A DNA stretch of 64,000 nt from Aphrocallistes beatrix. Lineage: Eukaryota > Porifera > Hexactinellida > Sceptrulophora > Aphrocallistidae. The position numbers and the translations under genes are program-made. The stretch is from the NCBI GenBank assembly GCA_963281255.1, contig OY725488.1:5045925-5109924 (forward strand), given 5' to 3'. Below are positions 28,393 through 51,215 of this stretch, piece by piece (position 1 is the stretch's first letter; each line of letters opens with the position of its first letter). The notes below the pieces were generated by a model. That model searched no databases. It saw only the letters and a list, made by a program, of their open reading frames with translations, and was not told the origin of the DNA.

Positions 28393-29884
28393 ATGTTCAC
28401 TGTTTTAATTTTCTCTCTCGTTTCTCTTTCCTACCCACCTGTGAGTTCAGATGGAATTCACTATCCTGGTTCAATTTCCCCTCTCACCCTCGACTGCATT
28501 TCAAACGACTCACAATTATACGGTGTTCCTTGTGAAGTAAATGCTAGCGGAAATACTCACCTCTCTATTAGTTTTACAGTTAATCATGTCCGGAACAAGG
28601 ATTTTGGTAGGTTCAGAGCGCATCCCCTCTTGATTTCATGTCTCCAGAATATAACTTCCAGTTTATCAATTCAGCTGCACATCTTACAATTCTATTTGGC
28701 TGAAGAAGAGGAACTCGTTGTTCTTACTAATGATACCTTTTTAAATGGACAATTAAAGTACTATCATATGGCTGGACTAGCAGTTTCATTTAATATACCC
28801 AATGGTTCGATTGAGAACTTTTTTACTCATCTTATTCTCCTCTGTTGGAACAGCATTTCCAACACACAGTACTCTGTAGGCATTGTAAACTTAAATCAAT
28901 CGAGACTCGACCTATTGCTTACAAATCAGACACTTTTCTACCCAAATGATATAGGAGATATTTTCTTTGCTCTTCTTAACTCATATCTTATTCCTTCTTC
29001 TTGGCCAAAATGTTCCAAAGACACATTTGCCGAACATTCTTCTTATCCCGATAATATTACGATGCCAGAGCTGGTGGTTGGGGCTATCACTTCTCATATA
29101 AGCAGGAACTCTCTAGAGTTCCTCTCTCTTAAGCAGTACCCTGCTACTAATATTATTTTTTCAGGCTGTGATTCTTCAATTACTGGTGCCTCAGCACACG
29201 CTCGCTGTTCATCTCGTGTAATGTCCTTTAGAATGTACCGCATGCTTCAAGTGCTAAATGCTATAGTTTTTACATTCAAATCAACGACACTCAAAGTAGT
29301 TCGAAGCTGGTCAAATGATCCACTCAACATTTCCCAATCTGCTTGTTTCTCTTTTCTTAATACTTCCCTATATTCGGAAGGCCGAGCTATGTTGCTAGAA
29401 GCTGTTGGCAACTTAAGTCAGTCACACTTAGCAGGTTTGGCCAGATGCTCTGGGTTTGACTTTGTGTACTATGGATGTGGACATGTACTTGTAGCGGTAC
29501 GCGATCAACGAAGTACTATTCCACTCACTCTTGTTTTTCCTAGGTCCATACTTCTTCCCGTTAATATTAAAGAACCCGCTTCTTCTCATTACAACACCAC
29601 TCCATTGGGCGTCTCTCATTCGCCTCTGTTCGATTCATCCGGAATCCGAGATAGAAAGCTGTCTGATGGATTTAAAGTATGTCGAATAGCTGGTTCAGAT
29701 CGATATTTTAGAATTCATCCTGTGCTTGTAGGCTGTTTGCAGTTATTGGAGGATAATCTAAATTGTTATTTTAAAAATTCTTCTCGTATATTTAATTATA
29801 CTTACTTGAGAGAGCAAATCTCTGCTGGAGATATATGGAACTTAAAGACTGGATTGGCTGTTAAAATCAATTTAACTTATCAAG
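28393..29884 (+). CDS. Hedgehog-N-like tandem-repeat secreted protein, exon 1
   Basis: Encodes residues 1-497 and the first base of codon 498. I start at ATG 28393 because it opens a good signal peptide (MFTVLIFSLVSLSYPPVSS); the open frame extends upstream without an ATG. Many N-x-S/T sites and cysteines fit a secreted protein. Repeat 1 (about 70-180): RFRAHPLLISCLQ...MAGLAVSFNI...LILLC. Repeat 2 (about 270-370) is closest to the Hedgehog signalling domain: YRMLQVLNAI, LKVVRSWSND, LYSEGRAMLLEA, LAGLARCSGFDFVYYGCGHV. Repeat 3 starts at 438 (YFRIHPVLVGCLQ...TGLAVKINL) and runs across the intron. The zinc ligands known in Hedgehog are largely replaced. The donor is CAAG|GTAGGC. Family assignment comes from my own motif alignment, not a search. 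Confidence 0.7.
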
Positions 29885-29939
29885 GTAGGCCCTAAATAAT
29901 ATGTACTACTACGTACTACAGTAGTCTACAACAACTACT

Positions 29940-30069
29940 ACTATATTTCTTGTGTGGTCTGTCGATTTCGAATTCTGGTACATATCTAACGGGGATACCG
30001 ACCATTTCAAAGGACAATTCAATACTGATAATTCATGCACTGCCAATTTGATACAAAACAATTCGATAC
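29940..30069. other. Intron start, no feature
   Basis: Only intronic AT-rich sequence between the donor and the first Helitron. Nothing seen. Confidence 0.5.
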
Positions 30070-30388
30070 ATGACTAGAGTATATATCATCTGTGAGATGT
30101 ATTAATATACACATTTTATTAAAATTTCTATCACCTAAAATGGCTGAGTTGGTCGAAAAACTTTCTAATTAATTTCTAATTATAGAAAAGGTGACAATGA
30201 CATCATAATTCCATGATGAGTTGACATTTTCATCTAAGGTCAGAACTTAGTGGAGCCATAACCAAAAGACTCCACATGCCAAAAATCAGCTTTCTGTGCC
30301 TGGCAGTTTCTTCAAATCGTTACAAAGAGATATACATATATATACACAAACAAACAAACACACAGTAATCGAGTTTTAATAGTAAGGC
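30070..30388 (-). mobile_element. Helitron-type element, 5' half, head-to-head pair
   Basis: On the - strand it begins TCC/CCTTACTATTAAAACTCG at 30388 and contains the family body. It abuts another copy in the opposite direction (30389-30880). Confidence 0.7.
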
Positions 30389-30911
30389 TATCTCTCTGTA
30401 ACGAATTGATTGAAGCAAATCCCAGGAACAGAAGGCTGATCTTCGGCATGTGGGAGTTTTTGGCTATTGCTTCATTAAGTTCTGACCTCAGACGAAAATG
30501 CCGACTCATCATGGAATTATGATGTCATCATTGTCACCTTTTTTATAATTAGAAATTTCAGTTTTTCAACCATAACTGAGCCATTTTAAGTGATAATTTT
30601 AATTAAATGTGTATATTAATACATCTCACATTGATAAAATATCATCAAAAATGATGACTCATCACTCTGTTATGACGTCACTATTACGCATCAAAAATTG
30701 AAAATTCGATGTGATTTTTCGAGTGACATTGATTATAATAGTAAGGCCAACGTATTTAGAGATGTTATCTACCATATAATTAATCAATATGAGCCTAGGT
30801 GCCCAAAGGCCGCTTCTGGGGTACACAAAGTCTCCGCCAGCCCCGCAGCGCAAGCACGCTAAGCGCGCTTGCACATATATATGAACATTCTTCGAGTTTT
30901 AATTCTAAGGA
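30389..30911 (+). mobile_element. Helitron-type element, near full length
   Basis: Runs from TCTGTAACGAATTGATTGAA through the whole family body to CGCAGCGCAAGCACGC and GCGCGCTTG-like ends, then an AT run and an inverted 5' end (TTCGAGTTTTAATTCTAAGG). The two head-to-head copies form an ~800-bp inverted repeat. Confidence 0.7.
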
Positions 30912-31297
30912 TTATCACAAAGTGAAATATAATCTACAAAAAGTGGGACGCGGGAAATTTCACAAAATTTGTGCTAAAAGCGGAGCATTTGGCAATTATT
31001 GAATGTGGTGATAACTTTCCATTGTTGCTATATCATTTCTATGGATAAAAAGTGGTCCGAATACATTCTCTCATTAGCAACCCCCTTTCTATCAGTTCCT
31101 ACAAGTTGACCTCTTGAAGTACAGTCTATATTGTGAGATGTTTAGTGAATTATTTGGGTAGATCAAGTTACAACTACTTTCATTATTTTAAAATTTATTC
31201 TAGAAATATTTTATTCTGTTCAGCCCCAGCATTCTTTTACTAGCAAATCAGATAATTAACTTTGATTATTTCAGTATCATATACAAGGCTAATAATA
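30912..31297. other. Intronic stretch without feature
   Basis: AT-rich. Nothing recognised. Confidence 0.5.
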
Positions 31298-31485
31298 CAG
31301 TCTACTCCGCTTAATAGGGTCACATCGGTAAGAAGACATTTTGCCCCGATTAAGCGGAGAACCCTATTAACCGAAAATATTTTGTATTAGCTTCTATGTG
31401 TGAGAGCTATCCCGCTCCTCTCAAAAGTGGCCTGATTAAGCGGTTGACCCGATTAAACAGTGACCCTATTAAGCGGAGTAGACTG
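31298..31485. mobile_element. pogo-like MITE CAGTCTACTCCGCTTAATAG
   Basis: The terminal repeats CAGTCTACTCCGCTTAATAG and inverse are TA-flanked. 188 bp, with internal copies of CCGATTAAGCGG. Confidence 0.88.
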
Positions 31486-31682
31486 TAGTTATAATGAGCA
31501 ACTTACTTAACACAGCTACAGGAGCGTAGCTCAGCACCGCATGTCGCACATTATACCATAATCACTCTTGCTCTTAATACACACGTATTATATGTTGATT
31601 TCCGTTTTACCATAGCCATTTTAAAGAGGTGCTAAAGTTAATACAGAACCATTAGTTGCTAGTTTACCTGTCATATATACTA

Positions 31683-32475
31683 CAAGCGCGCTTCGCTTGC
31701 TTGCGCTGTGCCGCTGGCGGACACTTTGTATCCGCCGGAGCGTAGGCTCACATTGATTAATTATAAGTTGGATAACATCTCTAAATGCATCTGTCTTACT
31801 GTTATAATCGATATCACGAAATTTGTCAATATTCGAATTTTTGACGCGTAATGATGACGTCATAACAGAATATTGAGTCATTTTTTTTGATGATAGGTGT
31901 ATCATATTTGAGATACAGTCGAACCTGCTATAACGGCCACTCTGTATAACGGTCACCTGTCTATAGCGGTCACCATTGAACAGTCCCGTCCGAAATTCCT
32001 TAATATTGACCCTGTGTATAGCGGTCACCTGCTCAACGCGGCCAGCGGCCACCCATTTGCAGTCCCTTACTGACCCAAAAACTGTGTATAACGGCCATCA
32101 TCTGTCTATAATGGTCACTACCTGTCTATAACGACCATCACCTTTTCCACCTTTTATGTGTTTATTACAGGACATGTTACGAACGATAAACAAGTTTCAT
32201 TATATTACTTCAAGTAATAGATTTCTAAAAACTTGATATTCATTACACTACGTTGATACCTTTTGGCGATTAAGACAATCACCTGTATATAACGGCCACC
32301 TGTGTATAACGGCCAATTTTGTCCAGTCCCTTGGGTGGCCGTTATATACAGGTTCCACTGTATATTAATAGACACATTCTATTAAAATTTCAGCCTTCTA
32401 TCACCTAAAATGGCTGAGTTATAGTCAAAAACTGAAATTTCTAATTCTAAAAAGTGACAAAGACATCATAATTTT
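31683..32475 (-). mobile_element. Helitron-type element split by a pogo MITE
   Basis: On the - strand the 3' terminus ends ...GCGAAGCGCGCTTG followed by T; the body extends to about 32475, where the 5' end is lost. Inserted at 31916. Confidence 0.75.
31916..32360. mobile_element. pogo-like MITE with ACGGCCAC repeats
   Basis: The ends CAGTCGAACCTGCTATAACG and, inverted, CAGTGGAACCTGTATATAACG are flanked by TA. The subterminal motif TATAACGGCCACCTGT recurs about nine times. It sits in a Helitron body. Confidence 0.85.
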
Positions 32476-32776
32476 AATTAAATTTTAATGAATGGGAAGG
32501 GTCGATTCGACGACGCTTGTAGGTATCAACTATCCATATTTAATTAACATTTGACTTTGCGAATAACTGAATTCTTACAGTAATACAATTGAAGAAACTA
32601 AATTAATGGTGGGCAATTGATGACTCGTCATTTTTCTATAATTTCTACGAGTGTGAATTTAAATATTTTAAAATTTGTAAAAAAATGTTATTATATTGAC
32701 AGAGAACACTAATCCTCCTCTTTTTGGTTAATTTTCCCCGAACTGTGCCTAGTCGAATACTGCGCCAACTTCACAC

Positions 32777-33106
32777 TCATTTACATTCCTCGCAACTTCC
32801 AGATGACAGTGAATCAACGTGAGGTTGCTCATTCTCTCCTGTCCTTGTGTCGAACGTAGGTGAGCAGTCAACGCAGCACACTGAAGGAGCGTTCAGCTTA
32901 TCGAGAACAAGCGTTGTACCCAGTCCAGGGAACATTGCTTGCATCGCAGTCTCTTCGGCCATTACGACAGCCTTTTGTATGAGATCTCCATGTCTATCTG
33001 CTGACATTGAGCAAACCATGCCTGGCGATCGAACTTGAACTACCTGAATTCTGGAAGATCCCCCGAAATAGAAGTCAGCTAATTCTTGCAACTCTTCGTC
33101 GTTCAT
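32777..33106 (-). CDS. Hypothetical acidic protein, 109 aa, antisense in intron 1
   Basis: ATG 33106 to stop 32777; the frame is open a little further upstream (GTG at 33127). Its codon use and composition differ from the surrounding AT-rich DNA. Visible features: an acidic start (MNDEELQELADFYFGG), a GLGTTLVLDKL segment, and cysteines (VCCVDCSP, GSCEECK). Just upstream on the - strand is GTAGAGTACAG, a possible splice acceptor, so it may be the last exon of a gene. I recognise no family. Confidence 0.4.
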   Translation of the reverse strand: MNDEELQELADFYFGGSSRIQVVQVRSPGMVCSMSADRHGDLIQKAVVMAEETAMQAMFPGLGTTLVLDKLNAPSVCCVDCSPTFDTRTGENEQPHVDSLSSGSCEECK

Positions 33107-33298
33107 GGCTTCCTTCTCGTCCCGCACCCCCGCTGTACTCTACTCCTATGTGATGATCACTTGGCAACCTCTCATTTCCCAGGAGGTTTCGATAATATTG
33201 CTGTTGCCCTAGCAATTGAACACTTTTATAGCTTGCTATTGCTCAAAATAAATATCTATTGGTTCTATTATGTGAAGATTCAAAATATATAGTAGATA

Positions 33299-33786
33299 CA
33301 GTCGACTCTCGTTAATACGAACACGGATAAGGAGTACAATCGGATAAGAAGTACAAGTTTTGATTCCCCAACCTAATCTATGGCAAAAAATATATACAAA
33401 CGAACTCCCGTTAACACGAACACGGATAAGACGAAATATCGGATAATAAGTACGATTTGTGGGTCCCCTCAGTGCGTTTTCAATACTAAATACATCGGTT
33501 AATACGAACAGGTGTGTGCCTACGAGCACTTGGTACGTAGTATGTACGTAGATAGATACTAGACAGATATTTCTCAATGAAAATACGGCCGAATCTCGTT
33601 AATACAACATGGATAATGAGTTCTCTATTTGACAAGTACAATTTCATACTCTCACGTAGTTATCACTATGTATACTAAGTATTTTGGACAAATGTGGCTA
33701 TGTACGAACTTCGGTTAATACGTACTCCAGATAAGGAGTACGAATCTCCACCGTCCCTTGGTGTACGTGTTAACGAGAGTCGACTG
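33299..33786. mobile_element. pogo-like MITE CAGTCGACTCTCGTTAATAC
   Basis: The terminal repeats CAGTCGACTCTCGTTAATAC and, inverted, CAGTCGACTCTCGTTAACAC are flanked by TA. The interior repeats GTTAATACGAAC...GGATAAGGAGTAC several times. Confidence 0.88.
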
Positions 33787-33837
33787 TATTTCTAAAATAA
33801 GTACCCAAATTACCACTTGTTAATTAATAAAAATTTA

Positions 33838-33909
33838 ATATTCGAGCCCCGGCGCTTATTTATTTCGCTCACCCTTTAGACCCGGCGCTTATTCAGGGAA
33901 ATACGGTAC
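33838..33909. repeat. CGGCGCTTATT-type MITE end
   Basis: Two CCCGGCGCTTATT motifs and AAATACGGTACC resemble the end of another pogo-like MITE. The other end is missing. Confidence 0.4.
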
Positions 33910-33914
33910 CTCCT

Positions 33915-34520
33915 CGGACAGGGACCCCCAAACCGTATTCAAGATGTCTTTTATGACATTATCAAACAATCCATTATTCCCATTACCCAACAATTCCGCC
34001 AACCTGCTCCTATCCACCTTTCCTCCAATCACCCATCAAGGAAACAATTATTCAAATCCTTTTATGCCCCAGTACACCGCTCATCCTCCTTAGCCTCACA
34101 CCCACATGACGCTTTATACAATTACTTTCTCCGCTATCTCCCAGCCCTCCTTAGAGCAGGCCACAACCCATCTGATATTGTTGCCGCAATAACAGACCTC
34201 TTTTACTTCCCCCGAAACACTGAAAAGAAACCCCTCCCGGACTCATACCCCATCCTGCTCTCAAACCCGTCCCACCCAGCGCCAACTAGCTCCCCTTACC
34301 AAGCTACCATTTCACCTTGTTCCCAAGATCCCCCTCGCACCCCTCGAATCCATAGTGACTCGATCTTTCCCCAAACCCATCAATCCCATTAATTCTTCTC
34401 GTGTCGGAAACGATGTCGCATCTGTGAAGCATACGAGCAGGAATTCAATTCTCCCCCGTTAACTTTCCCTTCGAACCCTGCTGGGTTATTCGCTGTGTCT
34501 ACCTCTTACACGAGCAAACC
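33915..34520 (+). pseudogene. C-rich coding relic, possibly Penelope-like
   Basis: About 150 codons are open from 33935 (QDVFYDIIKQSIIPITQQFR, then YLPALLRAGHNPSDIVAAI and LFYFPRNTEKKPLPDSYP), with a stop near 34392. After a frameshift follows SCRKRCRICEAYEQEF and FPSNPAGLFAVSTSY. The C-x3-C-x2-C segment before a G-x-F/A block vaguely recalls the end of Penelope-like proteins. Base composition is far more C-rich than the neighbours, so it is a recent arrival from another source. Identity is uncertain. Confidence 0.35.
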
Positions 34521-34602
34521 ATTTGAAGGGTGTGCATTATAAGATTAAAACTTTGGAATTTTTTGGAGCACCCTAATATATATATATATATATATACACG
34601 TG

Positions 34603-34665
<63 letters not shown>
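34521..34665. repeat. AGGGTGCTCC-family end and AT/GTATAC microsatellite
   Basis: AATTTTTTGGAGCACCCT ends a foldback arm, followed by (AT)n with ACACGTGTATATATATAC. Confidence 0.6.
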
Positions 34666-34668
<3 letters not shown>

Positions 34669-35161
34669 GGTTGAAACCGAATAGTTGATTATTCGGTTTA
34701 ACCAAATATTATTTGCAAATAATTGATATTTGGTTTGTAACCAAATATCATTATTTGGTATTCGGTTGAGAACCAAATAATTTGGTCAACCGAATAATTT
34801 GGTTAACCAAATATTTGGTCAACCGAATAATTTGGTCAAACAAATAATCTGCATGGTTTCCCAATACAATCACACGTTCTTACATGAGGTGGTCCGAACA
34901 CAAATAAATCAAATAGGCTTACTTATACTTGATTATATTTTTGTATAAATATTTATATAATATATAAAAATTTATGCAAAAAGTATTATTTGGTTCAGCA
35001 AATTATTTGGTTGACCAAATATTCGGTTGACCAAATTATTCGGTTTAACCATTATTCGGTTAACCAAATTATTCGGTTTGACCATTATTCGGTTAACCAA
35101 ATTATTTGGTCTGACCATCATTCGGTTAAAATGGTATTTGGTTGAAGCGGTTTCAACCTTG
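34666..35161. mobile_element. hAT-like MITE in an AT microsatellite
   Basis: The ends CAGGGTTGAAACCG and, inverted, CAAGGTTGAAACCGCTTC lie inside a Helitron's AT repeat. The interior has tandem TTCGGTTAACCAAATTA units in both directions. Confidence 0.7.
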
Positions 35162-35178
35162 ATATATATATATACGTG

Positions 35179-35210
<32 letters not shown>

Positions 35211-35213
35211 CAC

Positions 35214-35284
<71 letters not shown>

Positions 35285-35327
35285 CATACATACATACATA
35301 CACATTAATCGAGTTTTAATAGTAAGG
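35162..35327 (-). mobile_element. Helitron 5' end with long AT repeat
   Basis: Read on -, it begins TCCTTACTATTAAAACTCG at 35327 after A, then an ATGT/AT microsatellite of about 150 bp that hosts the MITE to the left. Confidence 0.65.
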
Positions 35328-35898
35328 ATTACTGATACAGATGTAGAATGCTTAAAGAATGGCATAGAGATTTCTCGCCCGAAAAAGAAGAGCATACATA
35401 ACAGTGTATTAAGGAAATACACACTACATTTAACTTGTGTATGCTTGTAAAATCTTGGGCATAAATGTACACTAGGGTGCTCTGATGATGCACACCATTC
35501 AAATAGTTGACTTTGATCACTAGATATTCACCATAAAAGTTTCAAGCAATTTGCAAAGTATAGGCTCCCCCTCGTACAGATTTATACTAATGGGATTTAT
35601 CCGGTTTGGTGCTTAAAGGTACAAAAAGTGTACTTCTGATATTCAAAGAAATTAGTAACTTTATTTTTGATATTTTGGGGGGGTTATGTCAGATATTAAT
35701 ACTTTTTAATGACGTAAAATCTACCGGTTCGGGAATATTGGTGGGAAATAGTAGGAAAAGTACGAAGGCTGGTCCCAACTGTTTTGACCAATATCTCCAA
35801 ACCGGTAGTTTTATAGACCATTAAAATGTATTAGCTGAGACAAATCCCCCCCCCCAAATATCAGAAAAATTAAGTTACTATTTTCTTTGAATATCAGA

Positions 35899-36439
35899 CA
35901 GGGTTGAGTTTTGTCCTGTCCAAAACTGGTTTTGGACGGACAGTGGGGAAAACCCGGTTTTTACCGGTCAAAACTGGTCAATACCGGTCAATACTATATC
36001 CTTGAATATTAAGAAACTGAAAACGTATAAAACTTGTTAAGATATCTTATTTTGAGTTGGTAATATACTATTGACTACATATACAATGAAACAGTAAAGT
36101 GAAAAATGTGTGGTTCAACCAATTAAACTCTAATAAAGTATACGTACATATGCTCTTTCTAAAGGGGTATAATTATCGAAAGCATTTGTGATATTATTTA
36201 AATTGAATACAATCGTGCAGATTGTTTATCTTACTTGAATTGACCAATTTGAAATGACACAAGGAAGAAGGGCCATTGATTCAATATGTATTCAGCATAT
36301 TTATATAATTATTAAAATATACAAGTAAGAAGTAACATGCATTAGTATTTTAATTAGGTTTTGTCCAGTCAGGAGGTTTTAGACAGGACGGTTTTTTCCA
36401 CCATGGTTTTTACCACATGGACAAAACCTGCCAACCCTG
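35899..36439. mobile_element. hAT MITE, 541 bp
   Basis: The ends CAGGGTTGAGTTTTGTCC and, inverted, CAGGGTTGGCAGGTTTTGTC are flanked by the perfect duplication ATATCAGA (35891-35898 and 36440-36447). The subterminal motif ACCGGTCAAAACTGG repeats. Confidence 0.9.
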
Positions 36440-36651
36440 ATATCAGAAGTATACTTTTTGTACCTTTAAGGTCCAAACCGGATAAATCCCATTAGTATAA
36501 ATCTGTACGAGGGGGAGCCTACCTTGCCCGACCAGTAAATTATTTCCAAATTGATTGAAACTTTTATGGTGAATATCTGGTTATCAAAGTATACAGGGTG
36601 TCTCAAAAGTTCTGCAACAAATGTTGCTGATGCATTATATATAGATAAATA

Positions 36652-37982
36652 CAGGGGCATTCAATAAATACTAATCACGAAATATATTTCAATGAAAGAG
36701 TATTACAAACCCAGTCAACTCAATGCAATTATATACAACCATATTTTAACTCGATAACAAAACTGAGGGAGTTGATTACTCCATTATTTCTCGAGTAACA
36801 GTGATTTTAGATATCTACATTTTGGACTATCATATTTTGCATGGCTTCTTGTCCTAATTACTCTGAAATTGAGCAACGGACGTATGTCAAATTTCGCACT
36901 ATCCTCGAAATCCCTCCAAAGTCTATTTATGAGTAGCTGGCAATGATATGTGGAGAAGATTCTCTATCATATTCAACTGTCAGAAGGTGGGTAAACCTGT
37001 TCAGGGAAGGCAGGGCCTCTGTCCAAGACGCCCCTCGTCCTGGAGCACCAAAACTGGCGACCAACAGTGACAAATTGAGTGAGGTAAAGGAATACGTCGA
37101 CTCTTTCCCCCATTCTTCGGTTGAGGACGTAGCTAACAATGTTGGCATTTCAACGGGAAGTGCACACGATTCTGAAGTCGGAGTTGGAACTGAGGAAGGT
37201 CCAAGTGCGATGGGTACCGCATTGCCTGACTTCTCCACAAAAGGCCGCTAGACTCGAAATGGCCAAGGAAAACCTCACAATCTATGAATGGTGTGACCCA
37301 AGACGTTTATTAGAGATAGTAACAGGGGATGAAACTTGGATACAATTCAAGTCACCGATCAGAAAACAAGATGGAAGGGTATGGCTGAAAAAAGGAGAGG
37401 TACCCCCAGCTGTTTGTGTGTCCGACTTTCGTGCCCCGAAGGTCTTATACTGCATATTTTTCGATGGGCTAGGGCCTGTAGCCCAGATCCCTGTTCCCAA
37501 AGGCCAAACACTTACTGGACAATTCTACGCTGATGTTGTGTTACCTGAAGTTGAGAAATCGTACCTTAAGCGTCGTCCAAAGACTGGAACACGTGGTCTC
37601 AAAATTTTGCATGATAATGCCAGACCACATAAAACTTTGGCTGTCAAGCAAAAAATTAAAGATATGGGTATGCACGAAGTCCTGCACCCACCTTACTCCC
37701 CTGATATAGCCCCATGCGACTTCTGGCTGTTCAGAAAACTCAAAGATCACCTCTCTGGACGCGAATTTGAAGATCGGCTCAGCCTTGGTCGGGCAATTTT
37801 CCAATACCTCGAAGTCATACCCAAGGATGAGTATAGGAAGACGTTTGAAAATTGGATTAAAAGGCTAAATTATGTTGTAAAGTATAAAGGAGATTACTTT
37901 GAACATTCTTAGTAAAAATCATCCAATTTACACAATTATTTTTTGTTTTGGTGGGTGTGATTAGTATTTATTGAATGCCCCG
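36652..37982 (+). mobile_element. mariner transposon 2 (1.33 kb)
   Basis: The ends CAGGGGCATTCAATAAATAC and, inverted, CGGGGCATTCAATAAATAC are flanked by TA (36650-36651 and 37983-37984). Confidence 0.9.
36841..37912 (+). pseudogene. mariner transposase, one stop and one frameshift
   Basis: ATG at 36841 (MASCPNYSEIEQRTYVKF); an in-frame TAG at 36934, then open again from 36937. A frameshift near 37165 joins GISTGS to HTILKSELELRKVQVRWVPH. Helix-turn-helix region SYSTVRRWVNLFREGRA. Catalytic motifs GDETWIQF, LHDNARPHK and YSPDIAPCDFWLF are intact, with DD34D spacing. The C-terminus YVVKYKGDYFEHS is complete. It is a different lineage from mariner 1 and mariner 3 despite the same layout. Confidence 0.88.
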
Positions 37983-37984
37983 TA

Positions 37985-38460
37985 GATCAAATATCCGATA
38001 CCTCTTTTTAATCAAAAAATAGGGAGGATTATCTTAATTATTTTGCATTCCCAATGGCCTGCTTTTCTCAATTTATTTGCAATGCTGGATCATATATATC
38101 GTTGTCTAGTAAATAATATTTTTTATCTCAATAAAAAAACTCATATCCATGGTACATTTGACGTCTATACTTAAAATACTCGCGTTCTTATAGAAGATTT
38201 CCGTTACATAAAACATAAGTAATAATATTATTTTAGTATTATGAATCAATTACAGAATATAGAAGTGATTAATGTAATATTTCATCAGAAAAATAGTGAT
38301 CTTCAAACTTGACACTTTTGAGCTCCAAATTTTGGAATAATTGGTATGTAATTATTTAAAATTTTATAAGAAATGATTTTGCGTAATGAGTTGAGCTCAT
38401 TTCTATGCTAGAAGGGTGCTAAATTTCATTTATGGAGGCTAATTTGGAATACAATCAAGT
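37985..38460. other. Right part of the host MITE, no gene
   Basis: AT-rich interior of the element at 36594-38517. Nothing else seen. Confidence 0.5.
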
Positions 38461-39307: not shown

Positions 39308-39486
39308 GTAAGTCCTTTCTTTATAATTTGAATGGGTCGATAATGGCAATTTTATTTATTAAAATGTTTGAATTTTATTTTTTTAATTGATTGATGACCG
39401 GCAAGTTATAAGAGAGTTTTATGTAGCTGTAAAATGTCAATCTTAGACAATTTCGAATCTCTAACTTCATCTCTGAAAACACAACA

Positions 39487-39845
39487 GGGCCGGGTTGGTT
39501 TACCGATTTTAGGGCTCGTTTATTTGGTTTCCTCCAGGGTGGTAACTGGTTAACCGATGTCAAAATTCATTCGTTGAAATATGGATCTTGGGAGAAATCT
39601 TTAACTCTATATTGAAATTTTTGAATATTTTCATTGGTCTCGAAATATACTGTACGGTTAGAAAATAGAAATTCTATTGTATCATCAGATTTTTAGAAAA
39701 CTAATATTCTTGAATCTCCGTCGAAAAACAATGAAATTGGTGTAAATATTTAGAAATAAAGCAGATCGGCTAACCGATCTAAGATTTTCTTAACCTTTAC
39801 CCGAGATTGATGGTAGTTAGGTGGTTAACCGCATCCAGCCTTGCT
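39487..39845. repeat. hAT-like repeat with GGTTAACCG
   Basis: CAGGGCCGGGTTGGTTTACC at the left and, inverted, AGGCTGGATGCGGTTAACC at the right. A diverged copy of the interior (GGTCTCGAAATATACT) lies at 46745-47080. No clear target duplication. Confidence 0.45.
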
Positions 39846-40050
39846 GGAGATTTAAAATGTGTACTTCTTTGTGTTCTCACTTGGGTCGGCTGTACATAGC
39901 TAGTGTTTTATTTAGAAGATGTGACTATGCCTTTATTGGTCATTAAGAAAGTGACACTAATATTCGGCAAATGTTACATTCGTTTGAATTTTAGAAAAAT
40001 GTCATAGGCTTCAACATTTATTAAGTGTTTTTTAGGAGTACATACGCATA

Positions 40051-40293
40051 CATGCCAACCTGCGCCATGATAAAAGCGGGACACAGCGTTGAATTTGGCG
40101 GGACATGGCGGGACGCAATAGAAATGTATTATACATGGAATACAAAATAGCGGGACGTAATGGGGAAATTTCATGTAAAAGCGGGACGTAATGGGGAAAT
40201 TTCATGTAAAAGCGGGACACTCGATAAAATTAGCTCAATAGAAGAGTGAAAAAGCGGGACGTCCCGCCAAAAACGGGATCGTTGGCAAGTATG
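40051..40293. mobile_element. MITE with AAAGCGGGACGT units
   Basis: The ends CATGCCAACCTGCG and, inverted, CATACTTGCCAACGATCC are terminal repeats. Inside are several AAAAGCGGGACGTAATGGGG-type direct units. The flanks GCATA/GCATAC are consistent with a duplication. Confidence 0.55.
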
Positions 40294-40298
40294 CATAC

Positions 40299-40360
40299 GG
40301 GCATGCCTAATTTCCGGGACTGGCCGGGATCCCGTCCCGTCCCGGAAATTAGGCATGCCC
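40299..40360. mobile_element. GGGCATGCCTAATTT MITE, 62 bp
   Basis: An almost perfect palindrome, GGGCATGCCTAATTTCCGGG and inverse, abutting the previous MITE. It is a deletion form of the hAT MITE at 15298-15416. Flanks ATGCATAC / GTACATAC. Confidence 0.7.
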
Positions 40361-40373
40361 GTACATACTAGGT

Positions 40374-41090
40374 CCGTTGAAAACCGAAACAAGTACTTTT
40401 AATGAAAATCAGAAGCACGATAAACGAGTTGTTTAATGGCTAGTCCTTTCAATTAATCCTACTTAAACTAATATATAACCTTTGAATTATAAATGAATCC
40501 TTATTATAAAAATAATGATTCTTCGTTATTTAGATTTTTTCATCATATTAAAATTCAAATTGTTGACTAGATATAACAAAAAAAATAGAGAAGGTCAAAA
40601 AAGTTTTCACAACCGTAGGGATCAGGCAAGTGAAGTAAGATCTATTGCGTTCTAAATTTCTAAAAGAGCAGTTAAATTAATTTAATGCAGCACGTCAGTA
40701 TTTCTAAACTTAGTATTCAAATTTTTTCATTTTAAGAAAATTTATTTTATATGACCGATAACTCTTTCAACTTAATCTACATATATTTAGTCTGGTGGCT
40801 TAGCGAGCTCGAAGGAAACAACTAGATGTTTACCAATTTAATAATTCGGGGTAGAAGACATTTGTTCTGAAAACTTTTGAATTTGTGGATCGAAACTTGT
40901 TTTTACAATTTTTAACTCCATTATATCCCAATTCACAACATTGCGAAAAGTATTTTTAATATTTTAAGTGTAAATAATTAACATATGAGTAGCTTTAAAG
41001 AGTGAATAGCAGTTGATGGTTAGTAGATACCTTTCATTACTATTCAAATTCGTTTTATTTTTCTACACATTAAAACACTAATTTGACGAG
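40374..41090. other. Intronic AT-rich stretch
   Basis: No gene or transposon end recognised. Confidence 0.5.
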
Positions 41091-41094
41091 GGGT

Positions 41095-41190
41095 CAAAGG
41101 TATAAATAGAAATGACCCCATTTTCATTTTCAATTTCAGTTCACTTTCAATTAACTTTTACTTTCAATTCAACATTCCACGGCAACATAG
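41095..41190 (+). repeat. TATAAATAG / GAAAGT module
   Basis: GGGTCAAAGGTATAAATAG is followed by AATGACCCC and repeated TTCA(G/A)TTCACTTTCAATT. Inverse copy of 9560-9660. Confidence 0.6.
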
Positions 41191-41369
41191 GGTTATTAAA
41201 TTACTTAACTTAAAAGCTTTCAATCTTAATATGGAAAATTTTAGGGTGTTGCACACATAGCAACCATCCCGTTTTGGCTGGACATCCTTGTTTTACTATT
41301 CTATCAGGCTAATGTTCGCGAGTGTCCCACTTTTGAATCAAACGGTACAGAAAGCTGATTTTGTGTACG

Positions 41370-41636
41370 TCATTGTCACCTTTTTATAATTAGAAAATTC
41401 AGTTTTTCGACTATAACACAACCATTTTAGGTGATAGAAGGCTGAAATTTTGATAGACTGTATATATTAATAAGATTCTTCGAGTAATATCGATTATAAA
41501 AGTAAGTCAGACGTAAAAGTATTTAGAGATGTTATCTAACTTGTAATTAATCAATGTGACCCTAGGCACCCGATATACTTCTCTGGCAGATACTTTGTGT
41601 CCGCCAGCCGCGCAGCGGAAGCAAGCGAAGCGTGCT
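41370..41636 (+). mobile_element. Helitron-type element, 3' half
   Basis: Ends with CGCAGCGGAAGCAAGCGAAG and GCTTGG; the 5' half is missing. The second-family Helitron 5' end follows directly. Confidence 0.65.
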
Positions 41637-41741
41637 TGGTGTATATTAAAATGATAGGATTTATGTTTCTGTGTGTTTGTATATTTATTAGAATTGATCG
41701 AAAAACTGGCAACTCGGTTATGAAAATGTGGTTTGTACTTA

Positions 41742-43065
41742 GGTCATTTCAAAAGTACTGATCACTATTGATTTTTGACAGCTAGTGTATATCGAATGTA
41801 CCAATTAATATAATCCAGATAGCATTACCCATTCTCTCCTAATATCTAAAAGAATTTTTAAGATAGCATAAGTATTTTTCTTATAATCATCATTTCAATC
41901 TTGTCAGTTTTGGCTACTTATACATTTATGGCTTCAAAATCGTCAATTATTGAGCAAGAGCAAAGGGCGTATATCAAGTTTCGTTCACTGCTAAAAGATT
42001 CGAACAGGAACATCCACAATGATCTCGTGGAAGTTTGTGGAGATCAAGCACTTGCTTATTCCACGGTTAGAAGATGGGCTCGACTATTTAGAGAGTGAAG
42101 AGACAGCATTGAAGATGAGCCTCGGACTGGTAGGCCTAAATCTGCAACCTGTGAACCCTCAATTGAGTTGGTTGGTGAATTTCTTCGAAATGACCCTTGC
42201 TGCTCTATTGAAGAGATTTCTAAGTCTACGGATATCTCAACGGGAAGTATTTACCGCATTCTGAAGGAAGATCTCGGAGTAAGGAAGGTTTGCCTCGGCG
42301 GGTGCCGTATTTGCTGTCAGAGGCCCGGATGAAACAGAGGGTAGAATGTTGTGAAAATCTTCTACATTACGAAAAATTTGATGCAAGGCGACTCTATGAG
42401 AAAGTAACCATAGATTAAACTTGGATTTACTATTCACAACCTAAATCCAAGGAAAAATCTAAGTGTTGGCTGCATCCGGGCGAACCCCGACCTAAAAGAC
42501 CGCTTCCAGATTTTCGTGCCAAGAAGGTAATGTACGCAATTGCATTTGACGCCTACGGCCCAGTTGCTCAAGTTTGCGTTCCGAAGGGCCAGGATGTTAC
42601 TGGAGACTTTTATTGCACTAATGTGCTCGCAGAAATCAGTAAACACTACACAGAGCGTCGGCCGAGAACTGGTCCTCGTGGAATACAACTTCTACATGAT
42701 AATGCCAGTAGCCATAAAACTAAACAAGTCGCCGCATACATCAAGGATATAGGGATGAAAACACTGAATCACCCTCCCTATTCCCCTGATCTAAGTCCTT
42801 GTGATTTCTGGTTGTTTTCAAAGCTGAAAAGTCATCTCTCTGATAAGGAGTTCACTAGCCGAATGGAGATCGGAATCGCCGTTCATAAGTACCTGAAATC
42901 GATCCCACAGACGGAGTATAAAAAGTCATTTCGCTGCTGGGTAGACCGTCTAAAGGAGTGTATTCGCGTCAAGGGAGACTATTTCGAGAATATGTAATTA
43001 AATAACAAATCAGTCGTTGCTTAATATCAAATTGGTGGGGGGTGATCAGTACTTTTGAAATGACC
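41742..43065 (+). mobile_element. mariner transposon 3 (1.32 kb)
   Basis: The terminal repeats GGTCATTTCAAAAGTACTGA and inverse are TA-flanked (41740-41741 and 43066-43067). Confidence 0.92.
41928..42997 (+). pseudogene. mariner transposase with multiple lesions
   Basis: ATG 41928 (MASKSSIIEQEQRAYIKFRS). An in-frame stop follows LFRE at about 42096. Reading frame shifts lead through ISTGSIYRILKEDLGVRKVCL (about 42235-42295). The catalytic GDETW region has become a stop-containing stretch (42400-42430). From 42530 the C-terminal half is open: LLHDNASSHKTKQ and YSPDLSPCDFWLF (DD34D spacing), ending KGDYFENM. More decayed than mariners 1 and 2. Confidence 0.85.
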
Positions 43066-43200
43066 TAAGTAGGTCTTAAAATGGTGACCTACGGAGAATT
43101 TCGAATATCCAAGCGAAATTTCCATACCTCTGCTAAAAACAGTGATGAAAAAGTGAATACCTTTCTATACATTATACTGGCTCACTCTCTCATTAGCAAA

Positions 43201-43531
43201 TCGTTATAAGATCCTACAATCAACTACTGTTGTTAATCGTGAGAGTAAATAACACCTTATACCAGGAGGGACATGTTGACCATGCCCCCCCCCCTCCCCC
43301 GAAATATCCCAGAGGAGCTAAACAATATAAACCCGATTATTTTCAAAAAAATATTGACACTTCCATTATCATTAAATTTATTTTTGTCTCCATTAGAATT
43401 TCCTGGGTACACCACTTACCATCGGGTGATGGGGCCTCTAGCGAATTTTAGTAAGATTATTCTTGGGGGTGTAAGGTCTAAAATTCAGAAATTTATTTTT
43501 TGAATGAGGTATGATGGGACATAATCCATGC
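43201..43531. other. Stretch with a poly-C tract, no gene
   Basis: Contains a C12 and CTCCCCC tract (43284-43301) and two short overlapping frames. No motif. Confidence 0.4.
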
Positions 43532-43690
43532 CACTATCAAAGATGAACTCAAGAAATTTTGACTACGAAAGTAAACGTTCCTTTTTAATACAGTGTCTAT
43601 CCATACAAGATGCCCTGTATGGATAGACACTGTAACAAAAAGGAAGGTTTACTTTCGCAGTCAAAATTTCTTGAGTTCATCTTTGATAGT
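43532..43690. repeat. Near-perfect ~74-bp-stem hairpin
   Basis: ACTATCAAAGATGAACTCAA at the left is mirrored at 43671-43690. The arms match over about 74 bases with few mismatches, with a loop of about 11 bases (AAGATGCCCTG). It may be a foldback MITE or a source of hairpin small RNA. Confidence 0.85.
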
Positions 43691-43949
43691 CCGCCCGTCC
43701 AGAATTTCAAGGAAACCGTGCGGGAGCGATCTAGTAGGTACTAATCTTTAGCATACATTGCTTATTAAAAAATTTCCATTTTTCTTAGTGCTTTTTAAAA
43801 GTTTAGTAAGGAAAGATTTTCCACAAATTCTGATTGCTTTGCTTTTAAAACACAACAACTTTTGCTTTTAAAACACGATAACCAAAATCGGCCATATATC
43901 GTAATTCTGAACCACTAGAACATATTAGGAAGCAAACTACGCTCAATAA

Positions 43950-44597
43950 GTAAGAAAAGGGGGATATTGACCATAATTTTTACTTTTAGTACCTGTTTGA
44001 AAGATTTGAGATGGGGAATTTTGGTTAATTTCTACTACGAATTTATCCTACCAAATAGGAATTTTTGATGAAATTTTAATCTGGTTGTCTCGAGGCAACA
44101 TCAAAATGTGGACAAAGAAGGACAAAAATATCAAAGCGCCCACTACCAAACATGTTCCCAAAATCAAAAATGTTTGGACAAGATTTAGCTCGATGGGCAC
44201 TTTCCCATTGTGCATTTTAATATGAACAGCCAAATGTTTATGAGGATTTTGGAAGGTCACTTACTGAGGCAAGCTGAAGTTTTTTTTAAAAAGATTGGCG
44301 ATTAGTGATGGATAATGATCCAAAGCATACCGCAAAGATAGTCAAGAGGTTTATCTCTGAAAATTCCAGAACAACTACCTTGGCCTTCTCAAAGCCCTGA
44401 TATTAATCCCATTGAGAACCTCTTTGGTGGGCTGGAACAGGAGCTTTTAAAAAGTTCTCCTTCGACTATTATCATAGGGCTAAAAAGGGGGCTGGAGATA
44501 ATTTGGGAAAGCATAAGTCCGTCTTTTCTTAAGCTTTATTGGGAGTCCATGGTCAAAAGATACAACAAGGTGGTTGAAAATAATGGTTATCCATAGC
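43950..44597 (+). pseudogene. Tc1-type transposase relic
   Basis: Broken frames read MNSQMFMRILEGHLL (about 44221-44265), DNDPKHTAKIVKRFI (44309-44353), then +1 WPSQSPDINPIENLF (44382-44426), RYNKVVENNGYP and a stop at 44597. These are the catalytic D, the DxNPIE block and the usual C-terminus of Tc1 transposases. At least two stops and one frameshift are present. The N-terminal half is missing or unrecognisable. Confidence 0.75.
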
Positions 44598-45778
44598 CTA
44601 CTGTATATAAGGCCTCACAGTAACTTGCGAATTTGGGACTAGGGATGCGGTAGAAGATGGTTGAACTAATACATGAGCTGCCTTAAATCATTAACCAAGC
44701 ACAATAGAGCTTAGGAATGTATTACCATCATATATAAATATGGTGTCAAAGTACCCATATCCGTTGTTAAAGTTTAGATTAGTCACCATATGGTTCCGCA
44801 ATAGGTTATATTTGTGACAAATTTGGTGATTTTCAGAGGCCTTTTAGGGGCACTTCTAAGTGTTTTTACTAAAAAGTTTTTCGCATATAACTGAGATGTG
44901 AATGGGTTAATATTTGATTTGGATTTTTTTCATTGAATGCTGCTACATTCCAGTGTTCCTATGGAAACGTGTTTTGGTCATTTGGGGTTATATCTTGGAA
45001 ACTGCAATTGCTAGACATTCTAATGTAATTCCATTTGATAGCGAATATACTACTTCCTATTAAGCGATAATATAATTTCGACGTCTAAATTCAATAGTTT
45101 ACGAGATATTCGACAATTTGCCATGGTAAAGCATTTTGGTCAATTTGAGCCATGTCCTGCAAATTGTTATAACTAGGTTTCAAATTTGACTACAATCGAT
45201 AGACAATAGGCTACTTCCTATTAGGTAATAATACAATTTGAACTTCTATATTCACTGACTATAGACTTATGCAGCAATTTATTTTATTGGTCTCATTCTT
45301 AAAATCAACCCTTAACTCAAAACCCGTTGAATTTAGAGTTTGAAATGTATCATCACCTAATAGGAAGTTGTATATTGCCTGTCAAATATGATGGAATTTG
45401 AAGACCTAATAACTGTAGTTTGCACGATATAGCCCAGAATAACCAAAATGCTATACCATAGCAACATAGGAATGTAACAACATTCTAATGAAAAAATTCT
45501 AAATTTTTCTAATCAACTAGTGCTAATCTTGGTTCTACACAAAAATCATACAGTGGAGTTTGCTTATTAGTAACGAATTACAAAGTTCAAAGTGTAGATT
45601 TTGTATTACTAATTCAGTTCCCTTATTAGCAACCTTTTTGTGAGCAAAACCCGAGGTACTTTAAGCGAATTCCACTGTGCATTATTACATTTAGAAGTAG
45701 GCTTAAAACACCTTAGAAAATCGCCAAAATCGTCCTTAAAGTGACCTGTTGCACAATGATATAATGACTAATCAAATC
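44598..45778. mobile_element. Mutator-type foldback, right end cut
   Basis: ATAGCCTACTGTATATAAGG then CCTCACAGTAACTTGCG is the same end as in the 54924-57156 foldback. The right arm (TTAGAAGTAGGCTTAAAAC...) resembles 9340-9480 and is truncated by a Helitron at 45779. A pogo-like MITE is nested at 45551. Confidence 0.65.
45551..45677. mobile_element. pogo-like MITE CAGTGGAGTTTGCTTATTAG
   Basis: The ends CAGTGGAGTTTGCTTATTAG and, inverted, CAGTGGAATTCGCTTAAAG. TA on the left, TG on the right. A relative is at 46870-47038. Confidence 0.7.
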
Positions 45779-45804
45779 GCAGTTTCTTCAATCAATTCGT
45801 TACA

Positions 45805-45862
<58 letters not shown>

Positions 45863-46250
45863 TACACAAACATTAATCGAGTTTTAATAGTAAGGATATA
45901 TCTGCAACGAATATCAGCTTTCTGTGCTTCGCAGTTTCTTCAATCAATTCGTTGCAGATATATATATATTTATATCTGCAACGAATTGATTGAAGAAACT
46001 GCGAAGCACAGAAAGCTGATATTTGGCATGTGAGAGTCTTTGGCTATGGCTCCACTAAGTTCTGACCTCAGACCAAAATTTCGACTCTTAATGGAATTAG
46101 ACGTCATTGTGTCACTTTTTTTTAATAATTATAAATTTCAATTTTTGACACAACTCAGCCATTTTAGGTGATAGAAGGCTGAAATTTTAATAGAATGTCT
46201 ATATTAATATGCTCACATATCTTACTTTCATCAAAAGATGATTACTCTAG
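45779..46250. mobile_element. Helitron copies, head-to-head
   Basis: A - strand copy ends at 45896 (GAGTTTTAATAGTAAGGA). Then a hairpin of GAATTGATTGAAGAAACTGC and its inverse surrounds a short AT repeat. Then a + strand copy runs to about 46250, where a G13 tract (46267) follows. Confidence 0.65.
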
Positions 46251-46479
46251 GGGTCCGAATAAACGGGGGGGGGGGGGTCATGCTAATAGGATTTAATTAT
46301 TATTTAATTATTGAAATCAACAAAAAGAAATTCGTGCATATATTTACGCCTACGTAATTAGAATAAAGTACAATATTATTGTAGAGAATTCTAACTGATT
46401 CAGAACATCAAGTCAGAAACTATGGTTTGGTCAAAATTCAAGTTTCAATTAGTATAAAATTTAATAAACGGGCGGTAAT

Positions 46480-46760
46480 AGTGAACCTAGGCAGCCGCGC
46501 AGCGCAAGCAAGTGAAGCTCGCTTGTATATATATATATATATATATATATTATATGAGTGATAGTCGAAAAACTGAAATTTCTAATGATAAAAAAGGTGA
46601 CAATGATGGCATCATAATTCCATGATGAGTCGACATTTTCGCCTTTGGTCAGAACTTAGTGGAGCCATAGCCAAAAAACTCCCACATCCCCAAAATCAGC
46701 TTCCTTGCTTGGCAGTTTCTTTAATTAATTCCTTGTATATACACTCATACCCATTAATCG
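46480..46760. mobile_element. Helitron 3' end (+) and 5' body (-)
   Basis: CGCGCAGCGCAAGCAAGTG and GCTCGCTTG (+) are followed by an AT run and a - strand body up to CACTCATACCCATTAATCGG, where the terminal bases are lost. Confidence 0.6.
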
Positions 46761-46869
46761 GTTGACCAATGTCAATATTAATTTGCTGAAATATGGAATT
46801 AGGATCAATCTTTAACCTGATATTGAAAAATTTGACGATTTTCAGTGGTCTCGAAATATACTAGGTGTA

Positions 46870-47038
46870 CAGTAGAATTAGCTTAATAGCAACTAGGGTT
46901 TTGGTCAAGAAAAGGTTGCTAATACGCGAAGTTGCTAATAAGGGAACAGAATTAATACAAAACATACTTTTGAACTTTGAAATTCGTTGCTAATAAAGCA
47001 ATATTGCTAATAGAGTTACTAATAAGCAAATTCCACTG
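46870..47038. mobile_element. pogo-like MITE CAGTAGAATTAGCTTAATAG
   Basis: The ends CAGTAGAATTAGCTTAATAG and, inverted, CAGTGGAATTTGCTTATTAG are TA-flanked, 169 bp, with TTGCTAATAAG repeats. A further single end lies at 47080-47160. Confidence 0.8.
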
Positions 47039-47175
47039 TATATGGTTAGTAAATAAAAATTATATTATATAGTGGAATTCGCTTATTATTTTCAACTCGG
47101 GTTTTGGAAATAAAAAGGTTGTTAATACGCGAAATTCCAAATAAGGGATTATGATTATTACAAAACTTCAAACAG

Positions 47176-48112
47176 GCAGTGGCGGAGCAAGCGAATATCC
47201 ATGCACTCCCTTAAGAAAATCATACACTCCACTGTGCCCCTTCGATGAGACCTAAAAAGTAAGTATTTTCAGGAGTTTCGCTTTTTCGAATTATATGTAA
47301 ATACACTCGAACCTCTCTTATCCGGACCTCCGATATCCGGGCACCTCTCTCAACCGGGAAGCCCTTTCGACATTTAGTCAATATGCATTGTCCTATTTTC
47401 AAGTCAATTATTAACCACAATTCCAGCAATCATTATCATGTAATATTATTTAATGAACTTTGATAATGAATTTGGAAGATAATTGCGACATCTAATATAT
47501 CCAGGGGGTAATACTGCTTAAAATGTATTAATCAATCGCAATGGAATAGTTTCTTTTCCTTTATAGAATATCTATTTTACAATCACCTCTCTTATCCGGA
47601 ACTCAAATTTTGATAACCTCTAAGTTCCGGGCACTAGATATTGTTTAAACTCACCCATTATACAAATTGACTGTTTTAACACTATAAACTGCTATTCAAG
47701 TTGATTTCTGAGTTACGGGCACCTCTCTTATCCGGACCTCCAATATCCGGGCAAATTCTGTTATCCGGGCACCCTCCGGTCCGGCACTGCCCGGATAAGA
47801 GAGGTTCGAGTGTACATTTAACTAGGAAAAGTGTTCATACGCGTACACCCCAATTGTTTATTTACAAATAGTTCATAATACCAATCTATTTATAAAGTCA
47901 ATAGCCTTTGATCAGTAACACATATACATACGTCTTAATTTTGTTCAAAATCCTATTCTCCACATTCGAATTACTCACTTAATAATCTTCCAACTAGATT
48001 GCTCTCCCTCAAGGTAAAATATTCTCATCTTGTGCCACTTACTTTCGTATATTAACTCCTGGCGGAGGGAGGGCACATATCTCCTGCCCCCCTAGCTACG
48101 CTACTGCCAATC
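47176..48112. mobile_element. hAT-like MITE hosting a pogo MITE
   Basis: CAGTGGCGGAGCAAGCG at the left and, inverted, CAGTAGCGTAGCTAGGGGGG at the right. No clear duplication. Nested insertion at 47304-47812. Confidence 0.5.
47304..47812. mobile_element. pogo-like MITE, inverse copy of 27557-28048
   Basis: The ends CACTCGAACCTCTCTTATCC are TA-flanked. Nearly identical to the copy 20 kb upstream, but in opposite orientation. Confidence 0.88.
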
Positions 48113-48120
48113 GGTCTATA

Positions 48121-48707
48121 AGGGTGCTCCAAAAAATTCGAAAGTTGAAATATTTAGATGCACACTCTTCGAATAGTTGATATTGATCACCAAGTATGCA
48201 CTAAAATTTTCAAGCAATTAGGAGATGTTTTAGTGGTCGCGCAAAGTAGGCTCCTCCTGGTGCAGATTTATAATGGGACATGTCCGGTTTGAGGCTTAAA
48301 GTTGTAAAAGACGTACTAATGATTTTCAAATATACTAGTAACTGTATTTTTGTGATATTTGAACTGTATTTTTATTATATTATCGCAACTGTTTTCACCA
48401 ATATCTCCGAACCGGTAGCTTTTAGGTTATTAAATGTATTATTAGCTGATATAAAACCACCCCCAAATATCACAAAAAATACAGTTACTTGTATATTTGA
48501 ATATCAGAAGTACGTCTTTTACAACTTTAAGCCTCAAACCGGACATATTCTATTATAAATCTGCGCCAGGAGGAGCCTACTTTGCGCGACCACTAAATCA
48601 TCTCCTAATTGCTTGAAAATTTTAGCGTGCATACTTGGTGATCATTGTCAACTATTCGAAGAGTGTGCATCTAAATATTTCAACTTTCGAATTTTTTGGA
48701 GCACCCT
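48121..48707. mobile_element. AGGGTGCTCC foldback, complete
   Basis: The ends AGGGTGCTCCAAAAAATTCG and inverse mirror along almost the whole length, meeting near 48415 (ACCGGTAGCT). No coding capacity. Confidence 0.85.
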
Positions 48708-48712
48708 AATAT

Positions 48713-49135
48713 ATATATAGATATATAGATATATAGATATACAGCTGTCAAATAACCAGTGGTCTGCAATGCTATTGCAACTGCATTTGTCACAAAAGGA
48801 TTGCTTATTGGTCCGATACGTCAAAACGGGCTGGGGAGAGCCATGCAAGAAGTTTGATGGACTTGTCCAGTCGTTCTCCTTTTCTCAAAAGTAATACTAT
48901 AAGCTGCTTGACTAAATTGCTATTTTTCAACCAATTAGGATGAACAATTATGACCAAACATTATAAACATTTGATTTATACCAGATCAGGCGATGCAAAA
49001 TACATTTGATCAGCATCAGCTGTACTATTCAAATACAGTAAAATTGTTTGTAAATTTGTAAAAAAGGATCCCGCGGCCCTGCATTTTGAAATATCGTTTC
49101 AATCGCGTTAAAAAATGATGAATGTTACCTTTTAG
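48713..49135. other. Intron 2 tail
   Basis: A GATATATA microsatellite, then sequence with no transposon signature, ending in the acceptor TTACCTTTTAG. Confidence 0.4.
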
Positions 49136-49807
49136 GTGATGAGACGTAAATACTGGCGTAAAGAGATTCAACTGGAAGAATCCATCCTCAGGTGTTTTAA
49201 TGGATGCAGCATTTGCCCTGAAGGAGAAGTTTGGAGAACGAAATTAAAAAATTGTGATAACTTAGTACATTGGGCACCCTTTCAACTAATTCACCAACCA
49301 AACAATATACATTTTTATGTGATAGACAATAAGAATATTGAAAAATTCGCTTGTGATAATGATAGAGTATGTGTGAATAAAGCGCCTTTATATGCAATAC
49401 TCGCTCCAATTATTGAATATTCATTCCGGCCAAATATTAAAAAAATTTATGAAAGATACTTATATTCTATTGCAGATAATCCACTTCCAATCTTGTTCCT
49501 CCTCAATAGGGTTTTCGCTATATCTGGAGTTGGTATTGCAACTATTTGGGTATCCAATGACAATGAATTACTTGTAATGGACGACATTTTACGAACTTTA
49601 ATGTTATGTAATCGAAACATTGACTATGTCAATATACATATTTTTAGCGTCAATCAATATTCCATAGTACACAATCAGATGGAAGCAAACATCAAGGATT
49701 GGAGCAACCACGACTGTTTAACAATCTCTCGTAATATAATAGCCCCATATGGAATTTCAATTGTACAAAACATCATTCTTACCAAAAGAGAGGAGCATTC
49801 AATTTAA
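49136..49807 (+). CDS. Hedgehog-N-like tandem-repeat protein, exon 3 (last)
   Basis: Codes for residues 645-867 and the stop (49805-49807). Starts directly after TTACCTTTTAG in phase 0. It finishes repeat 4 (EGEVWRTKLKN, LVHWAPFQLI, IHFYVID, matching SEGRAMLLEA...VYYGCGHVLVAV) and holds repeat 5 (VNKAPLYAILAPIIEYSF, SGVGIATIWVS, DDILRTLMLC, VNIHIFSVNQ, matching repeat 1 AGLAVSFNI...THLILLC...VGIVNLNQ). There is no Hint autoprocessing domain and no membrane anchor, so the product would be secreted whole. I see no clear polyadenylation signal before the next Helitron. Confidence 0.65.
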   Translation: MMRRKYWRKEIQLEESILRCFNGCSICPEGEVWRTKLKNCDNLVHWAPFQLIHQPNNIHFYVIDNKNIEKFACDNDRVCVNKAPLYAILAPIIEYSFRPNIKKIYERYLYSIADNPLPILFLLNRVFAISGVGIATIWVSNDNELLVMDDILRTLMLCNRNIDYVNIHIFSVNQYSIVHNQMEANIKDWSNHDCLTISRNIIAPYGISIVQNIILTKREEHSI

Positions 49808-51197: not shown

Positions 51198-51215
51198 TAT
51201 ATATATATATATATA

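Follow-up and report, generated by a model that had tools for sequence, protein, structure and literature searches.

A Hedgehog N-domain relative between duplicated domains in a predicted secreted protein of the glass sponge Aphrocallistes beatrix

Hedgehog proteins combine an N-domain (HhN) with a Hint domain. Can the N-domain also live as a building block of an ordinary extracellular protein, outside this combination? The question is raised by a gene in a stretch of 64,000 nucleotides of the Aphrocallistes beatrix genome (contig OY725488.1, positions 5,045,925-5,109,924), which we call the window and to which all positions below refer. The predicted product of this gene, 867 residues without an inner stop, would carry one Hedgehog-like domain (R2) flanked by two copies of a duplicated and possibly related domain (R1 and R3). 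We read it, with a probability of about 0.6, as a binding or structural protein that is secreted, rich in disulphides and based on a dead domain of the Hedgehog/M15 type.

The protein has relatives. A search with the window product returned eight proteins at E <= 1 among 7999 candidates scored, one of them (P0001) being the window's own frame, and the same eight came back when P0002 was used as the query. The latter, LOD99_1980 of the glass sponge Oopsacas minuta, annotated as a hypothetical protein of 900 residues, is 44% identical to the window protein over 98% of the query, and P0003-P0008 are single unspliced frames with 46-48% identity. With exon 3 alone as the query, three of 863 candidates reached E <= 1, namely P0010, P0011 and the protein of the window itself. 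P0008 and P0010 probably derive from one contig, since the longest contig given for each measures 945467 bases.

The Hedgehog-related domain R2

R2 passes the Pfam gathering cut-off for HH_signal (PF01085), with 26.2 against 22.1 bits over residues 230-361. It is the sole HH_signal match found in the genome, where domains were searched in six frames without introns, so that a Patched or hedgling gene split into many small exons could escape. The match is weaker in the relatives: seven of the eleven members of the alignment reach E <= 10, and eight of the eleven carry the domain. A profile built from Indian hedgehog and five bacterial HhN frames (five loci, L003-L007) matches R2 with a probability of 97 and an E of 3e-11, a score equalled by none of 60 shuffles. 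When the PDB was searched with the family profile, 25 sequences appeared at E <= 10, 24 of them Hedgehog proteins (best E 9.8e-5), the last being NDUB3 (E 1.6). With a single window exon as the query, two leukocidin chains (E 0.07) stood above Indian hedgehog (E 0.15); this likeness is taken as chance, the leukocidin chains being gone from the list once the alignment profile was used. R2 is, as far as its sequence can tell, a relative of the Hedgehog N-domain and of the M15 fold. A preliminary description, made from the letters of the window, had placed an entire array in the Hedgehog N family, and the assignment stands for R2, on the Pfam cut-off and the HhN profile, while for R1 and R3 it is suggestive only. 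The motifs then put forward as evidence of the array, SEGRAM and GLARCSGFDFVYYGCGHV, both fall within the single domain R2.

The domain looks dead as an enzyme. In the window, R2 has YSEGRAML at the place of HYEGRAVD in Hedgehog, and FSEGRA or FAEGRA is found there in seven relatives; the position of the Hedgehog Asp is Leu or Val in the R2 of the relatives and non-acidic in all eight R2 sequences, and all eight have HVL or YVL where Hedgehog has HxH. We take the zinc ligands of the Hedgehog/M15 family to be the His, Asp and His of HYEGRAVD and HxH; aligned in this way, the ligand positions of R2 appear to be replaced in 8/8 sequences. The Pfam HH_signal model does not require zinc ligands, and the intact zinc-binding and catalytic residues by which an M15 zinc peptidase is recognized are not there in R2. 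The His is kept in R1, with Ser for Asp in all eight sequences, and R3 is without the His in all eight. Since the ligand positions are replaced in R2 and Ser stands for Asp in R1, zinc peptidase activity is unlikely.

The duplicated domain and the number of repeats

R1 and R3 are, by profile comparison, copies of one another. Aligned with hhalign they give a probability of 92 and an E of 7.3e-7, with none of 40 shuffles as good, and other borders change little (probability 90.3, E 1.5e-6); both contain LS..FRxHPxLxxC, a Y in the following strand and G-x-AV. Are they also copies of the Hedgehog N-domain? If so, at least three Hedgehog/M15 domains, all catalytically dead, would stand in tandem in a protein secreted by a glass sponge whose genome gives no other HH_signal match, and we see the chances of this as evenly balanced. 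The competing account, in which R2 alone has the Hedgehog fold, R1 and R3 form an unrelated duplicated domain and there is no Hedgehog array, falls a little short of even odds. Shuffling gives a mixed answer. R1 against R2 is equalled by 3 of 40 shuffles, and R2 against R3 by 2 of 40. With the HhN profile, R3 beats 60 of 60 shuffles, R1 is matched by 3 of 60, and the combined R1+R3 profile is matched by 2 of 60, hence beats 58; with HhN+R2, both R3 and R1+R3 beat 100 of 100, and R1 is equalled by 39 of 100, which speaks for an unrelated domain. The registers argue for kinship: R1 and R3 lie on the Hedgehog core in the register one would expect, with HxxGLAV or TGLAV on HYEGRAV and FRxHP on the M-x-x-R helix. 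Because these registers agree, common descent of R1 and R3 with HhN is held likely, the kinship itself being suggestive only.

Several observations weigh against our reading of the protein, and most of them favour an unrelated R1 and R3. When reversed, the HhN+R2 profile gives R3 a higher score than in its true direction (22.5 against 19.7), and so it does for R1 (12.6 against 12.5); for R1+R3 the reversed profile is the lower (14.5 against 16.8). The R1/R3 profile matches no PDB chain at E <= 10, and none of eight R1 and R3 pieces matches HH_signal at E <= 10. To these must be added that the Oopsacas protein scores 18.8 bits for HH_signal, under the cut-off, and that a moderately hydrophobic stretch starting near residue 760 could be a membrane segment.

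About 320 residues follow R3, conserved and with no convincing repeat. Three overlapping stretches beyond residue 555 gave nothing significant against R1, R2, R3 or HhN, and self-BLAST of the whole protein drew the identity line only. Residues 500-867 were also scanned in seven sliding windows against three profiles, with 20 shuffles each. The segment starting at residue 500 matches R1+R3 because R3 belongs to that profile; 19 columns near residues 596-614 match R1+R3 in two overlapping segments (E ~0.07-0.08), with 0/20 and 1/20 shuffles as good; one segment compared with HhN has 1/20 shuffles as good; and in a further comparison another stretch of 19 columns, around residues 737-757, is equalled by 4/100 shuffles in two overlapping segments. 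As many trials were run, the 19-column matches and the one with HhN are not counted as repeats. A much decayed fourth copy may lie in the C-terminal third; the earlier figure of about five Hedgehog repeats finds no support beyond R1-R3, the sliding-window scan having given nothing convincing for repeats four and five.

Secretion, possible role and gene model

What could such a protein do? A hydrophobic leader core opens the sequence in the window and in six of seven relatives (P0004, as predicted, starts later), in keeping with the signal peptide proposed at the outset, and secretion is judged probable. The part encoded by exon 1 has 11 cysteine columns that never vary among the eight sequences, and both the window protein and that of Oopsacas contain 17 sequons. 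The product would be extracellular, disulphide-bonded and N-glycosylated. R1 and R3 may share the fold of R2. Peptides, glycans or other matrix proteins might be bound in the dead peptidase cleft of R2, and the chain of domains could supply several binding sites or a rod. Pfam, at E <= 10 over the whole protein, finds HH_signal only, with no Hint, VWA or cadherin domain; the missing Hint domain had been noticed from the start, and because of it the protein is not expected to be a self-cleaved, cholesterol-bearing morphogen. Hexaxilin, a silica protein, was considered as another protein of glass sponges and was set aside, being related to the metallo-beta-lactamase fold in the excerpts available of PMC10772126.

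A Hint-free Hedgehog relative might still be a signalling ligand, perhaps cut by a furin-type protease and acting on a receptor of the cell, a role that we find improbable. R2 is indeed a relative of the Hedgehog N-domain, and a furin-like RARR precedes the C-terminal tail in Oopsacas, P0010 and P0011 being readable in the same way; both site and tail are, however, missing from the window protein, which ends about 26 residues ahead of the tail common to P0002, P0010 and P0011 (stop region 49780-49807), and no exon for this tail was found in 49701-64000. The zinc-ligand positions are replaced, and searches of the genome for Patched and sterol-sensing domains gave matches that read as SCAP, NPC1 and HMG-CoA reductase, with no Patched among them, in a search where many-exon genes could be missed. 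The binding or structural role remains our preferred interpretation.

The predicted gene is sound in its exon joins and its conservation. The preliminary description had proposed three open blocks with correct phases, and they do join in frame (Table 1), through GT...AG splice sites at 29884/38868 (phase 1) and 39307/49136 (phase 0), the ATG at 28393 coinciding in the alignment with the start of the relatives. The Oopsacas homologue runs ungapped across both joins. At the first, NLTYQ-D-YSPLN in the window faces SIYPTDYPLLN in Oopsacas, the D codon being split by intron 1; at the second, RILA|VMRRKYW faces ELLVIMRRKHW. All six frames P0003-P0008 depart from the alignment at the first join, each via a Gly codon, consistent with reading through an unspliced G|GT donor. 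Each junction was said to rebuild a repeat: the first does, yielding R3, a copy of the R1 that is whole in exon 1, and the second rebuilds a conserved region to which no repeat is assigned. Exon 1 and exon 3 each have one match place in the genome (28 contigs, 100.5 Mb searched), and the gene is single-copy there. That there is no gene at all, chance frames having been joined by eye, is refuted at the level of sequence, for although two introns of 9-10 kb carrying transposase-like frames, where those of glass sponges are mostly short in the portions available of PMC10282587, could be counted in its favour, the annotated homologue over 98% of the protein, the conserved donor and the relatives of exon 3 leave it next to no credence.

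Table 1. Exons, introns and predicted domains of the gene (positions in the window; residues of the product)
Feature	Positions	Strand	Residues	Remarks
Exon 1	28393..29884	+	1-497 and first base of codon 498	Leader, R1, R2, first half of R3; open frame, 7 relatives align
Hydrophobic leader, likely signal peptide	28393..28452	+	~1-20	
R1	28555..28938	+	~55-182	HxAGLAVSF core; R1-R3 hhalign E 7.3e-7
R2 core	29080..29475	+	230-361	PF01085 26.2 bits; HhN profile E 3e-11
R3, first part	29635..29884	+	from ~415 (whole R3 ~415-545)	TGLAVKI core; R3 split by intron 1
Intron 1	29885..38867	+		GTAGGC...TTGTAG, ~9.0 kb; transposase-like frames inside (by reading)
Exon 2	38868..39307	+	rest of R3 to ~545 (39010), then start of C-terminal region	Open frame; aligns with Oopsacas LOD99_1980
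Intron 2	39308..49135	+		GTAAGT...TTTTAG, ~9.8 kb
Exon 3 and stop codon	49136..49807	+		Conserved Cys-containing region without named domain; P0002, P0010, P0011 align; Pfam only sub-threshold

Several frames of the window read as mobile elements. Mariner/Tc1-type transposase-like frames are read at 12789-13910 (-), 36937-37912 (+), 42419-42997 (+) and 57945-58544 (+), two of these places lying inside the introns of the gene; the frame at 6761-9151 (+) reads like a non-LTR reverse transcriptase, and 53886-60970 (-) reads like a decayed gag-pol retroelement. Further along, 61828-62478 (+) and 63164-63637 (-) are inverted copies of one frame starting CNSFFHIATVVILASSACLGTVESFFSAAASETT.

Elsewhere in the genome, Hint (PF01079) is matched 29 times at E <= 10. 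Of these matches, 19 have E < 1e-27, and none lies on the contig of the window (C1); VWA is found at 40 places at E <= 1e-5, none of them in the window protein. Clusters of Hint matches (L008-L015) lie at C16:1068264-1160376, C7:505298-543234, C12:1012022-1048152 and C4:2274943-2280461, in open frames of about 400-1450 residues, some of which hold two Hint matches. In two frames tested, the part ahead of Hint resembles MACPF, with 23.7 bits for L008 (cut-off 21.5) and 20.9 bits, just below, for L013. It seems unusual for a self-cleaving Hint domain to be fused to one of the pore-forming type, and no paper listed in our literature search has MACPF and Hint together. At C7:586921-588369, a frame of 680 residues matches VWA (E 6e-11) and, weakly, Hint (E 0.4, below cut-off).

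Comparison with known systems

The closest counterpart is Oopsacas LOD99_1980, which shares R1, R2, R3 and the C-terminal region with the window protein and differs in that its C-terminal tail is longer and includes a furin-like site, and in an HH_signal score below the cut-off. As to the genome papers, hedgehog, hedgling, Patched, Smoothened and Hint do not occur in the main text of the Oopsacas one, which reports missing Wnt-pathway genes, and hedgehog and hedgling do not occur in the Aphrocallistes one. The alignment of R2 with Sonic, Indian and Desert hedgehog covers most of the N-domain; by contrast, no Hint is found in the window protein, its zinc ligands appear replaced, and its domain is not N-terminal, being flanked by R1 and R3. 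Bacterial proteins of the HhN/M15 type (L003-L007) belong to the profile that matches R2; their frames keep HxxGRAxD or HxQGRAxD and HxH, whereas those positions are replaced in the R2 of the window.

The hedglings and other proteins that associate HhN with VWA, in choanoflagellates, sponges and cnidarians, have HhN without Hint, as the window protein does. According to the excerpts available of PMC4054682, the hedglings of sponge and cnidarian, like the choanoflagellate forms, have HhN beside VWA, the hedglings also having cadherin repeats and a membrane anchor; those of PMC2362128 describe hedglings as HhN beside VWA and then cadherins. In the window protein, by contrast, Pfam finds neither VWA nor cadherin. 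The HhN of hedgling is likewise without a complete peptidase motif, as stated in a portion of PMC6027127. A Hedge domain unaccompanied by Hint is by itself no novelty in a sponge, since the same excerpts of PMC2362128 describe an EST fragment of Oscarella carmela with a Hedge domain, no Hog and no VWA detected; the window protein may be likened to it, as far as a fragment allows. Tandem HhN proteins are absent from the papers listed in our searches of open-licence main texts, which cover neither subscription papers nor supplements.

The window protein fails the tested features of both hedgehog and hedgling. Should the tandem array be real, the Hedgehog N-domain would also occur in repeats, as an extracellular module with neither Hint nor VWA, and this lineage would have lost hedgling or never acquired it. 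Even a single conserved HhN relative that lacks VWA, Hint and the zinc ligands and lies between duplicated domains shows the module in another context and offers a concrete protein to study, a hint that the Hedgehog signalling domain serves ordinary binding or structural purposes too. This bears on the toolkit of glass sponges and on how the Hedgehog N-domain became a signal.

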